From positions 1 to 33,378 of the forward strand of contig JAICQP010000010.1 in NCBI GenBank assembly GCA_025937815.1: 33,378 nt of DNA, written 5' to 3'. Origin of the DNA: Gemmatimonadota bacterium (GTDB lineage: Bacteria > Gemmatimonadota > Gemmatimonadetes > JACCXV01 > JAHWKZ01). Made by a program: the position numbers and the translations under genes. Below the pieces are notes generated by a model. The model worked only from the letters and a program-made list of their open reading frames with translations. It did not search any database and had not been told where the DNA came from. Shown here one piece after another: positions 29,973 through 33,378 of this stretch. Numbering within the stretch: the stretch's first letter is position 1; every line of letters starts with the position of its first letter.

Positions 29973-30313
29973 GCTTCACTCTCCTCGTCTGGCCGCGGCG
30001 CCCGGACGGGGGCCGGCGTGGGAACGAGCGGATCCACCACGGTCAGCTGCCTGAGGACTTGCTCGTCGAGGCGCATGATGCGCTCGAACTCGGTCAGCGC
30101 CGAGGGCTCGGTCTCGTAGCGCATGACCGCGTAGATCCCCTGCTCTTTCTTGTCGATCGGATAGGCCAGCTTGCGCTTGCCCCAGACGTCGACCTTGACG
30201 GAGTCTCCGCCGTTCGGCGCGACGAGACTGGACAGGCGCTGGATCTTCTCCTGCACCTGGGAATCTTCCAGGGTGGAGTCGAAGATGATCACGGTTTCGT
30301 AGGGTCTTGGCAC
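29969..30313 (-). CDS. rpsF: Small-subunit ribosomal protein bS6
   Basis: 114 residues. YETVIIFDSTLEDSQVQEKIQRL, VDVWGKRKLAYPIDKKEQGIYAVMRYE and LDEQVLRQLTVV are bS6 core elements; the Pro/Glu-rich tail is a common extension. GTG at 30311-30313 with AGGGAG 8 nt upstream. bS6 dimerises with bS18 on 16S rRNA. First gene of the ribosomal cluster. Confidence 0.97.
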   Translation of the reverse strand: MPRPYETVIIFDSTLEDSQVQEKIQRLSSLVAPNGGDSVKVDVWGKRKLAYPIDKKEQGIYAVMRYETEPSALTEFERIMRLDEQVLRQLTVVDPLVPTPAPVRAPRPDEESEA

Positions 30314-30383
30314 TCGGGCGCTCCCTTCGGTCTATGGCGGTCCGCCCCCGCGTGGGACGAACAGGGTGCTGGGAAAGGCCGAG

Positions 30384-30412
30384 AAGCTACCCCGCAACCC
30401 CCGCTACGTCAA
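30384..30412 (-). promoter_or_regulatory. rpsF: Candidate promoter and leader of the rpsF operon
   Basis: Minus strand TTGACG (plus 30407-30412), 17-nt spacer, TAGCTT (30384-30389). The ~60-nt leader contains GGCGG-A-CCGCC and other GC pairing close to the rpsF start. A bS6:bS18 autoregulatory leader is known in other bacteria; I cannot confirm its motif here. Confidence 0.5.
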
Positions 30413-30418
30413 CGCCTT

Positions 30419-30446
30419 TTGCCGCCTTACTGCGCCCGCGTATCTT
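30419..30446 (+). promoter_or_regulatory. Candidate promoter for bolA, implying a leaderless mRNA
   Basis: TTGCCG (30419-30424), 16-nt spacer, TATCTT (30441-30446). Its -10 ends only 7 nt before the ATG at 30454, and no Shine-Dalgarno is visible. Confidence 0.45.
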
Positions 30447-30453
30447 GCTCCGC

Positions 30454-30717
30454 ATGACGGATGGATCGCTGCGAGAACGTGTGCGCGAGCGCCTTGAGCA
30501 GGCGTTCGGGGGGCCGGTCGAGGTGCGCGACCTGACCGGCACCGACAACCACTTCGAGGTGCGGGTCGTGTCGGCGGAGTTCGAAGGGAAGACGCCCGTC
30601 GAGCGCCACAAGCTCGTCTACGCGCCCCTGCGCGACTGGATCGACGACGACACCGTGCACGCGCTGTCGGTGCGCGCATACACGCCCGCGCAGCACCAAT
30701 CCCTCGACCTGCGATGA
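30454..30717 (+). CDS. bolA: BolA-family protein
   Basis: 87 residues. RVRERLEQAFG, DNHFEVRVVSAEFEGKTPVERHKLVYAPLRDWI and VHALSVRAYTP follow the BolA/IbaG fold, with the conserved His in RHKLVY that ligates a shared [2Fe-2S] cluster with monothiol glutaredoxin. The gene is 31 bp upstream of grxD, which supports that partnership. ATG at 30454-30456; the -10-like TATCTT just upstream suggests leaderless translation. Confidence 0.92.
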   Translation: MTDGSLRERVRERLEQAFGGPVEVRDLTGTDNHFEVRVVSAEFEGKTPVERHKLVYAPLRDWIDDDTVHALSVRAYTPAQHQSLDLR

Positions 30718-30748
30718 TGATGCAAACCGAAGCCACGGAGCGATAGCC

Positions 30749-31084
30749 ATGCGACCCGAAATGAAGGAACGGATCGACCGCGAGATCCGCGAGCACCCGA
30801 TCACGATCTACATGAAGGGGACCGAGATGTTTCCGCGGTGCGGCTTCTCGGCCGCCACCGTCGAGGCGCTGCGCCAGGCGGGGGCGGAGGGAAGCATCCA
30901 TTCGATCGACGTCCTGGCGGATCCGGAGATCCGCGAGTCGATCAAGGAGTACAGCGACTGGCCGACGATCCCCCAGGTCTACATCGGCGGCGAGTTCGTC
31001 GGCGGGTGCGACATCACCCGGGAGCTGTACGCGACGGGCGAACTGCAGAGCCGGATCGAGAAGGCGCTCTCGACCGCGGGCTGA
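30749..31084 (+). CDS. grxD: Monothiol glutaredoxin, Grx4 type
   Basis: 111 residues. The CGFS active site (Cys31) lies in YMKGTEMFPRCGFSAATVEAL; WPTIPQVYIGGEFVGGCDI carries the cis-Pro and GG glutathione/[2Fe-2S]-binding elements. Such proteins carry Fe-S clusters and work with BolA. ATG at 30749-30751 with GGAG 9 nt upstream. It is followed by two GC hairpins and then the oxidase gene. Confidence 0.96.
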   Translation: MRPEMKERIDREIREHPITIYMKGTEMFPRCGFSAATVEALRQAGAEGSIHSIDVLADPEIRESIKEYSDWPTIPQVYIGGEFVGGCDITRELYATGELQSRIEKALSTAG

Positions 31085-31170: not shown

Positions 31171-33066
31171 ATGATGCGGTTCTCCGTCAGCCTCCCCGCC
31201 GTGGCGCTCGCCACGTTGCTCCTGCCCGTTGCCATGCACGGACAAGCGAGTCTCGCCGGGTCCGTTCAGCCGCCCAGAATCCTTCCCAACGACAATCGCG
31301 TGCCTGCCGGAGTGCTCGAGGACGGTGTGCTCACCCTGCGGCTCGACGCGCGCGAGGGAATGTGGCACCCGCACGGATTCGACCGCGAGGGAATCCGGAT
31401 CGGCGCCTTCGCGGAGGTGGGCGGACCGCTCCAGATTCCCGGACCCCTGATCCGGGTGCCCATCGGGACCGAGGTGCGGACCAGCGTGCGGAATTCGCTG
31501 GGCAAATCGCTGGCCGTCTTCGGCCTCGGAGCCGAGCGCGGCGCATCCGGAGACAGCGTCCTCGTCGCGAGCGGGGGTGTCGCCGAGTTCGCCTTCGTCG
31601 CGAGCGAGCCGGGTACCTACTACTACCTTGGGAGGACCGAGCAGTCGGGCGTCCCCGATCCCGTATGGACCGGGAGCCTCCACGGCGCGATCGTCGTCGA
31701 CCCTGCCGGCGCCCGTGCCAGGCCGGGCGACCGCGTCTTCGTGCTCTCCTCGTGGTTCACATTCGACACGACGAACTTCAGCGACCTGTCGAGCGACGCG
31801 GTGATCACCGCGAACGGTCTCGCCTGGCCTCATACGGAGGTCGTCGAGGCCACCCAAGGCGACAGCCTGGAGTGGCGCTGGATCAACCTCTCGGCACTGG
31901 ACCATCCCATGCACCTCCACGGCTTCCACTTCCGCGTGGATGCCAGGGGCGACGGTGTGCGCGACACCCTGTATCCCTCGGATCGGCGGCAGCTGGCCGT
32001 GACCGAGCACGTCGGCCCCGGCCATACCGCGACGACCACCTGGTCGCCGGACCGCTCCGGGAACTGGATCTTCCATTGCCACATGCTGAGCCACATGTCG
32101 ACGATCGAGATCGTCAACTCCGCCCTCGTCGATCGCAGCAAGGGCCACGGCCAAGACGCCCAGCACATGATGGGGATGCTGGTAGTGGGAATCCGCGTCA
32201 TGCCCTCCGGTCCATCGGAGGTCAAGCCGGCCGAAGCCCGCCGGCTCCGCCTCCTCATCCGCTCCCGACCGGAGGTGTACGGGAAGTACCCCGGTTATGC
32301 CTACGTCCTCGGCGGCTCGGCGGAAGCGGAGGACCCGGACGCGCTCACCGTGCCCGGCCCGACGCTCGTCCTCGAGAAAGACGAACGGGTGGCGATCACG
32401 CTGGTCAACGAGTCCCACGAGCCCGCCGCCGTCCACTGGCACGGGATCGAGCTCGAGAGCTACCCGGACGGCGTGCCCGGGTGGAGCGGCGAGGAAGAGC
32501 GCGTCCTGCCCCCGATCCCGCCTGGAGACTCGCTCACGGTGCGCTTCACGCCACCCCGCGCGGGCACGTTCATGTACCACTCGCACTTCAACGAAATGCA
32601 GCAGACGAGCTCCGGGCTGTACGGACCGATCGTCGTGCTGGAGCCCGGCCGGACGTTCGATCCGGAGACGGACCGGGTGCTGGTGTTCAGCGACGGCGGA
32701 CCCTGGTCCAGCTTCATCGACGCATCGACGATCCCGCCGACTCTGCTCAACGGGCAGGTCGACCCGGAGGCGCTCGAGCTCCGCGCTGGGACGACCTACC
32801 GCTTCCGACTCATCAACATCCTGACCGAGACGCGCGTCCGCGTGGAGCTCCAGAGGGGAGAGGAGCCGGCCGAATGGCGCGCGATCGCCAAGGATGGCGC
32901 GGACCTGCCGCCGTCCCTGGCGACCGTGCGGCCCGCGCACCTCGGGTTCCTTCCAGGCGAGATCTACGACTTCGAGTTCACTCCCGAGACTCCGGGCGAG
33001 CTCGAGCTCGCGTTCGGCAAGGGGGAGCCGGAGACCTTCACCCGGGTTCCCGTGCGGGTGCGCTGA
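31171..33066 (+). CDS. Multicopper oxidase with permuted copper-motif order
   Basis: 631 residues with a signal peptide (VSLPAVALATLLLPVAMHGQA). Four cupredoxin-like units are visible. Unit 1 (about 90-180) aligns with laccase domain 1 but has VFGLG and YYYLG where copper His should be. Unit 2 (186-318) has HPMHLHG (245-251) and HCHMLSH (302-308), the L3 and L4 motifs usually found last. Unit 3 (395-493) has VHWHG (421-425) and MYHSH (468-472), the L1 and L2 motifs usually found first. Unit 4 (499-620) resembles unit 2 without copper ligands. The position normally holding the type 1 axial ligand after HCHxxxH appears to be Glu313. A periplasmic oxidase of metal ions or phenolics is likely. 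ATG 31171 (or 31174), no Shine-Dalgarno. Confidence 0.9.
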   Translation: MMRFSVSLPAVALATLLLPVAMHGQASLAGSVQPPRILPNDNRVPAGVLEDGVLTLRLDAREGMWHPHGFDREGIRIGAFAEVGGPLQIPGPLIRVPIGTEVRTSVRNSLGKSLAVFGLGAERGASGDSVLVASGGVAEFAFVASEPGTYYYLGRTEQSGVPDPVWTGSLHGAIVVDPAGARARPGDRVFVLSSWFTFDTTNFSDLSSDAVITANGLAWPHTEVVEATQGDSLEWRWINLSALDHPMHLHGFHFRVDARGDGVRDTLYPSDRRQLAVTEHVGPGHTATTTWSPDRSGNWIFHCHMLSHMSTIEIVNSALVDRSKGHGQDAQHMMGMLVVGIRVMPSGPSEVKPAEARRLRLLIRSRPEVYGKYPGYAYVLGGSAEAEDPDALTVPGPTLVLEKDERVAITLVNESHEPAAVHWHGIELESYPDGVPGWSGEEERVLPPIPPGDSLTVRFTPPRAGTFMYHSHFNEMQQTSSGLYGPIVVLEPGRTFDPETDRVLVFSDGGPWSSFIDASTIPPTLLNGQVDPEALELRAGTTYRFRLINILTETRVRVELQRGEEPAEWRAIAKDGADLPPSLATVRPAHLGFLPGEIYDFEFTPETPGELELAFGKGEPETFTRVPVRVR

Positions 33067-33103
33067 ACGGAGCACCCTGCCGGGTGTTGCTGCTCCCGTT
33101 CAG
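33062..33103. terminator. Bidirectional terminator-like hairpin between the oxidase and the AHSA1-like gene
   Basis: CTGAACGG (33062-33069) pairs with CCGTTCAG (33096-33103), with an inner CACCC/GGGTG stem. The arms contain both convergent stop codons, so it serves either direction. No U-run. Confidence 0.6.
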
Positions 33104-33378
33104 CTCTCCGAAGTCCAGTCCTCCCGGCCGTCCACGTACATGAGCGATCCGGGTGTAGTCAGGGTCTCGCCGGTCTCGAGCAGGGTCTTGAGACCCGAGA
33201 GGACCATCGGCCAGCCGCCGTAGAGCTCGTCGTTGGCGCCGTCGCGCAGCTGATCGTGGGTGACTACCAGCCGGCACGAGTCTTCGATCTTCTCGATCTC
33301 CCAGGTCACGCGCGACGTCCCCTCGTCCTTGACGTCGTCGCTCCACAAGGCGCGGAAGCTCTGGACGAGCCGCCGCGG
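33100..33378 (-). CDS. AHSA1/SRPBCC-family protein, N-terminus cut by window edge
   Basis: The last 92 residues before a TGA at 33100-33102; the gene starts beyond the right edge. SRVTWEIEKIEDSCRLVVTHDQLRD and GGWPMVLSGLKTLLETGE match the C-terminal half of AHSA1-type START-fold proteins (beta-strands, then a long helix preceded by GGWP). Such proteins bind hydrophobic ligands or act as Hsp90-activator homologues; often they pair with an ArsR-type regulator, which would be outside the window. Role unknown. Confidence 0.82.
   Translation of the reverse strand, partial: PRRLVQSFRALWSDDVKDEGTSRVTWEIEKIEDSCRLVVTHDQLRDGANDELYGGWPMVLSGLKTLLETGETLTTPGSLMYVDGREDWTSES

Follow-up and report, generated by a model that had tools for sequence, protein, structure and literature searches.

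Results

The gene and its product

The window, i.e. the whole stretch of DNA analysed here, is a complete contig of 33,378 nucleotides. It carries a gene which probably encodes a secreted four-domain multicopper oxidase (MCO) with a predicted O2-reducing site between the two middle domains, where copper would be bound. Soil bacteria have a large family of such enzymes, apparently not described before, of which this is a member. This explanation is based on the ligand conservation, the unit identities, and on how the domains fold and are arranged in the models reported here. The swapped order of the copper motifs as such is already known from the six-domain proteins MnxG and Fox1, which the earlier note on this DNA had overlooked; new here are the four domains and, at the T1 copper, a long loop rich in His and Met.

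The open frame codes for 630 amino acids plus stop, and starts with the ATG at 31174 or the one at 31171. The oxidase gene is complete, with 312 bases between its stop and the end of the contig. The interval previously assigned to it, 31438-33030, lies in the right gene, but both of its ends fall inside the protein and it covers aa 89-619 only. The chain consists of four units. The hhalign scores given below were obtained with domains 1 and 2 (D1, D2; reference profiles T1/T2) of type-B two-domain MCOs (2dMCOs), and with the domains of three-domain MCOs (3dMCOs).

31174..33066, +, coding sequence of the four-domain multicopper oxidase (open frame; full-length relatives with 35-56% identity)
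31174..31242, +, probable Sec signal peptide, about aa 1-23 (MRFSVSLPAVALATLLLPVAMHG; hydrophobic N-terminus with low pLDDT, presumed cleavage site)
31309..31707, +, unit 1, aa 46-178, D1-type cupredoxin without copper ligands (111.8 to 2dMCO D1, 36 to 3dMCO D2; in the D1 clade of the tree)
31723..32208, +, unit 2, aa 184-345, D2-type, with the T1 copper and half of the trinuclear site, both predicted (200.9 to 2dMCO D2)
32230..32652, +, unit 3, aa 353-493, D1-type, with the other, predicted half of the trinuclear site (211.5 to 2dMCO D1, 209.7 to 3dMCO D1)
32662..33063, +, unit 4, aa 497-630, D2-type, L3, L4 and T1 ligands lost (99.4 to 2dMCO D2, 84.2 to 3dMCO D2; sister of unit 2, 97/84)

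Cupredoxin folds, detected by Pfam as well as by AlphaFold2 (AF2) and Foldseek, place the protein in the multicopper oxidase superfamily. The Pfam domain Cu-oxidase_2 (L3/L4 type, 1.7e-32) precedes Cu-oxidase_3 (L1/L2 type, 2.9e-30), which is the reverse of the order in CueO or laccase. None of the NCBIfam models for CueO, laccase, CopA, ascorbate oxidase and NirK scored over its cut-off (best 106 bits vs 479).

Copper ligands

The earlier note claimed the motif order L3-L4-L1-L2, and all four motifs were indeed found in this order in one open frame. The counts below refer to 113 aligned family members.

31903..31923, +, L3, HPMHLHG, aa 244; T1 ligand H244, trinuclear ligands H247 and H249 (His invariant, 113/113)
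32074..32094, +, L4, HCHMLSH, aa 301; trinuclear ligands H301 and H303, T1 ligands C302 and H307 (invariant, 113/113)
32170..32172, +, Met333, putative axial T1 ligand (Met in 112/113; role suggested by the type-B 2dMCO alignment)
32434..32445, +, L1, HWHG, aa 421; ligands H421 and H423 (invariant, 113/113)
32467..32469, +, Asp432, 11 residues past the first L1 His (113/113; presumed role at the trinuclear site)
32575..32586, +, L2, YHSH, aa 468; ligands H469 and H471 (His invariant, 113/113)
31513..31524, +, L1 fossil in unit 1, aa 114-117, AVFG for HWHG (His at position 116 in 50/113, G117 in 112/113)
31618..31632, +, L2 fossil in unit 1, aa 149-153, YYYLG for FMYHS (Y151 in 111/113)

The ligand set of the superfamily, eight trinuclear His plus the T1 His-Cys-His in L1-L4, is complete. 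All 11 T1/T2/T3 ligands are invariant in the family, and because each of them occurs in every one of the 113 sequences, the four-motif pattern cannot be a matter of chance. The T1 ligands are confined to unit 2, as demanded by the definition of type-B 2dMCOs (T1 in the D2-type domain only). Asp432 has the same spacing from the first L1 His as CueO D112, a residue beside the trinuclear site.

Ligand loss falls on exactly two faces, those of unit 1 (D1) and unit 4 (D2). No copper ligand is left in unit 4 in the 113-member alignment. In unit 1, position 116 corresponds to the second L1 His and Y151 to the Tyr of YHSH, and the last G of GLYG is present in 112/113; such fossils of L1 and L2 are expected if unit 1 once functioned as D1. 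A search for relatives with all eight motifs intact, a check suggested previously, found none that is complete among the 113 members, although nearly half of them retain one L1 histidine in unit 1.

Identity of the four units

According to the earlier note, unit 1 pairs with unit 3 and unit 2 with unit 4, and the protein reads D1(dead)-D2(active)-D1(active)-D2(dead). The pairings are real: the first half of the oxidase aligns in register with the second (25% over 182 aa, E ~1e-3), and the profile-profile scores were 73.0 for units 1-3, 68.0 for units 2-4, 60.6 for units 2-3 and 33-38 for the other pairs. When the units were checked one by one with hhalign, units 1 and 3 were assigned to D1, units 2 and 4 to D2. 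Moreover, both halves align in register with one single type-B 2dMCO (half 1 with E 2e-16 to 3e-28, half 2 with 2e-16 to 7e-22); the matching two-domain oxidases, from Rhizobium, Chroococcidiopsis, Deinococcus, Simkania and Phycisphaera, contain L1, L2, L3 and L4 once each. These matches, the hhalign scores, the domain tree and the modelled arrangement of the middle pair all support the proposed reading.

The domain tree (93 rows, 132 columns; MnxG-type six-domain sequences were not among the rows) separated D1-type from D2-type domains with 100/99 support. The phylogenetic pairing expected of the units was obtained for units 2 and 4, which were sisters (97/84), but units 1 and 3 as sisters tied with the best tree (AU p 0.48), thus the sequences allow this relationship without demonstrating it. 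With 132 columns only, the tree resolves no further.

Part of these data would also fit a three-domain laccase rearranged into D2-D3-D1-D2, either by trimmed tandem duplication or by circular permutation. The score of unit 4 with 3dMCO D2 (84.2) is close to that with 2dMCO D2 (99.4), unit 3 scored 209.7 with 3dMCO D1, and neither the grouping of unit 4 with 3dMCO domain 2 nor that of unit 3 with 3dMCO domain 1 was rejected by the AU test. Since units 4 and 3 fit these 3dMCO domains equally or nearly equally well, the second half could derive from a three-domain enzyme. The rearrangement, however, predicts that unit 1 is 3dMCO D2, whereas unit 1 proved to be D1 (111.8 vs 36.0), and its grouping with 3dMCO domain 2 costs 21.5 log-likelihood units. 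We dropped this identity of unit 1 on the poor profile match; the AU p of 0.107 alone does not reject it. As the full-length model also resembles laccases poorly (TM only ~0.35), we regard such a rearrangement of a three-domain laccase as very improbable.

Predicted structure

AF2 was run from 71 family sequences, and structural matches were searched with Foldseek. The full-length model (pLDDT 89.4, pTM 0.90) matched ceruloplasmin with TM 0.65, MnxG with 0.64, factors V/VIII with 0.5-0.64 and laccases with ~0.35, so that six-domain proteins rank first. A separate model of units 2-3 (pLDDT 89.5, pTM 0.87) matched ceruloplasmin with TM 0.65-0.67 and MnxG with 0.66, the matched domains within these proteins not being specified by Foldseek. 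The similarity of the unit 2-unit 3 pair to the covalent D1-D2 pair of two-domain laccases was low (TM mostly 0.28-0.30, 16 A rmsd). Low TM to the latter and high TM to ceruloplasmin and MnxG indicate that the modelled contact between units 2 and 3 is not the D1-D2 contact found within a chain; it fits the contact between D2 and the next D1, which holds the trinuclear sites in 2dMCO trimers and, as the contact of domains 2 and 3, in bacterial six-domain MCOs. The trinuclear site had been placed between the central units, and the models agree with this location, as the middle pair adopts in them the consecutive-domain arrangement of ceruloplasmin and MnxG. From this arrangement we infer that all eight trinuclear His, four from unit 2 and four from unit 3, would meet at one cluster.

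Could the protein be a shortened six-domain MCO, i.e. an MnxG/Fox1-like protein minus domains 5 and 6? Ceruloplasmin and MnxG are the closest matches of its AF2 model, and the bacterial and algal six-domain MCOs share its site placement (PMC3600357). Yet the best 60 sequence matches consisted of laccases, 2dMCOs, ceruloplasmin and coagulation factors, with MnxG absent; both halves are also well matched by 2dMCOs, and the loci read yielded no recognisable family member of five or more domains. The matches listed from 229 Gammaproteobacteria, 297 Acidobacteriota and 297 Bacteroidota genomes likewise contained no long MnxG-like frame. An origin by loss of two domains from a six-domain protein therefore appears unlikely to us, although less so than rearrangement of a three-domain laccase.

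Distribution and genetic context of the family

The sequence scan confirmed 510 relatives, other MCOs included, 80 of which were kept. L3/L4 precede L1 in 78/80 of these (one of the 78 ends early, at ~515 aa), and family members are about 600-700 aa long. The best named matches are Gemmatimonadota, where 118 of the 395 sampled genomes contain relatives (E <= 1e-40), mostly full length and several with two or three copies. A second copy in the genome studied here, on contig C254, has 42-46% identity to the oxidase. Relatives were found in 4/297 sampled genomes of Acidobacteriota and in 4/297 of Bacteroidota, both counts taking in the genome at the centre of the sample; further carriers are scattered among Eremiobacterota, Balneolaceae and a few Proteobacteria. 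A full-length member was found in none of 228 further Gammaproteobacteria genomes.

The source assembly is fragmented (264 contigs), which might raise the suspicion of an assembly or annotation artefact. We see practically no chance of this: dozens of independent assemblies show the same architecture, and its presence in the isolates Gemmatirosa kalamazoonensis (with a copy on plasmid NZ_CP007129) and Flavihumibacter profundi (with two copies) refutes the suspicion.

Clustering of the ORFs around 80 family loci revealed no conserved partner genes that might hint at the function. About 90 bases upstream of the oxidase gene there are genes for a BolA-family protein and a monothiol-type glutaredoxin (30307-31081, +; PF01722, PF00462), an Fe-S/iron-linked pair whose position next to the oxidase was not seen to be conserved elsewhere in the family. 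Downstream lies an AHSA1/SRPBCC-type gene (33100-33348, -; PF08327), apparently cut by the contig end. The diverged four-domain paralogue on C254 (12531-14372) is located downstream of a MATE-like transporter gene, and a copy in the other genome of this genus is arranged likewise.

Some two-domain oxidases were also noted. A distinct two-domain oxidase of the same genome, encoded by contig C166 (minus strand), has a T1-like Cys in its first domain and is followed by a ZIP-like metal transporter sequence. Reading by eye suggested membrane modules in three type-B two-domain oxidases: that of Deinococcus sp. KNUC1210 (L117:1484-3295) has a ZIP-transporter-like N-terminus, the N-terminus of that of Rhizobium phaseoli (L115:1418-3358) may equal the DUF4396 gene adjoining the Chroococcidiopsis oxidase, and the third is at L116:1025-3343. 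The Deinococcus protein has QCH for HCH in L4, so it is one trinuclear ligand short, and it shares with the four-domain family a long T1 loop (~17 aa).

The loop at the T1 copper

32095..32169, +, long His/Met-rich loop of 25 aa from T1 His307 to the putative axial Met333 (pLDDT <50 at aa 313-328)

In the family this loop is 17-49 aa long (median 28), vs ~6 aa in most 2dMCOs and 4 aa in 3dMCOs of Gemmatimonadota. His is 3.1-fold and Met 2.7-fold enriched in it, which suggests that metal is bound where the substrate docks. Our guess from this composition, a rather doubtful one, is that the substrate could be a metal ion, for instance Cu(I) or Fe(II).

Discussion

It is instructive to compare the four-domain oxidase with the known types of MCOs. 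Type-B 2dMCOs, such as SLAC/Ssl1 and Cellvibrio CjMCO (superfamilies K and N), share with it the D1-D2 unit, all motif types, the T1 copper in D2 and the site between D2 and the following D1. They are, however, not fused, whereas the oxidase has two D1-D2 units per chain, thus four domains instead of two, and it has lost two of four motif pairs, which leaves only one trinuclear site. The type-B enzymes are homotrimers with inter-chain sites, while the site of the four-domain oxidase is predicted to lie within one chain.

In the bacterial six-domain MCOs (MnxG) and in algal Fox1 the trinuclear His are in domains 2 and 3 and the T1 copper is in domain 2 (PMC3600357), hence these proteins too have the order L3-L4-L1-L2. 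MnxG (structure 9bxa) and Fox1 resemble the predicted arrangement of the oxidase, but they have six domains and 1,200 aa or more, as compared to four domains and ~600 aa here, with the stop at 33066 following unit 4. Ceruloplasmin, hephaestin and factors V and VIII have similarly arranged consecutive cupredoxin domains. Ceruloplasmin-type proteins have six domains and their trinuclear site is between domains 1 and 6, in contrast to the four-domain oxidase. Three-domain MCOs (CueO, CopA, laccases) use the same four motifs and ligands, in the order L1-L2-L3-L4 and in three domains instead of four units, with the site between domains 1 and 3.

As to its origin, we infer duplication of a two-domain oxidase. 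The ancestor would have been a type-B enzyme, D1 carrying L1/L2, and D2 carrying L3/L4 and the T1 copper. In the type-B trimers the trinuclear site lies between D1 and D2 of neighbouring chains, and the T1 sites are directed towards a closed tunnel in the centre (PMC13151041). Head-to-tail joining of two copies would have made one inter-chain site internal, between units 2 and 3, leaving the D1 of the first copy and the D2 of the second without partners. Because fusion left these two faces without a covalent partner, their ligands would have been free to decay, resulting in the dead-active-active-dead pattern. Tandem duplication followed by ligand loss in the outer units, as put forward in the earlier note, thus largely holds in view of the unit identities and the pairing of units 2 and 4, with the sister relationship of units 1 and 3 only allowed.

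The enzyme would probably be a monomeric open arc working by the ordinary MCO cycle. Electrons of the substrate would pass one at a time to the T1 copper in unit 2 (H244, C302, H307, Met333), then presumably via the L4 His-Cys-His to the trinuclear cluster, whose ligands would be H247, H249, H301 and H303 of unit 2 and H421, H423, H469 and H471 of unit 3. O2 would be reduced to water at the cluster with the assistance of Asp432, and the outer units 1 and 4 would serve as scaffold. In an open four-domain arc the T1 copper would be exposed, as opposed to the tunnel of the type-B trimers.

According to a 2026 paper, the number of cupredoxin domains in MCOs is two, three or six (PMC13151041). Four-domain or permuted MCOs were not mentioned in the literature searched, from which subscription journals were mostly absent, thus priority is uncertain. 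Tentatively, and at somewhat less than even chances, four-domain MCOs may be a fourth class in which the covalent tandem-duplication step between homotrimeric 2dMCOs and six-domain MnxG/Fox1/ceruloplasmin has been preserved: a monomeric open arc filling four of six ring positions, with one internal trinuclear site and with an exposed T1 copper under a His/Met-rich metal-binding loop instead of in a closed tunnel.

A widespread four-domain family with a fixed internal site bears on the evolution leading from trimeric 2dMCOs to single-chain three- and six-domain enzymes, and the four-domain architecture would explain why ligands were lost on exactly the two partnerless faces. Surveys of soil laccases were based on two- and three-domain profiles, and found Gemmatimonadales first among the carriers at the order level (PMC12045287); part of this Gemmatimonadales laccase signal may come from the four-domain family. 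As the oxidase is carried by isolates, the enzyme is open to testing now.
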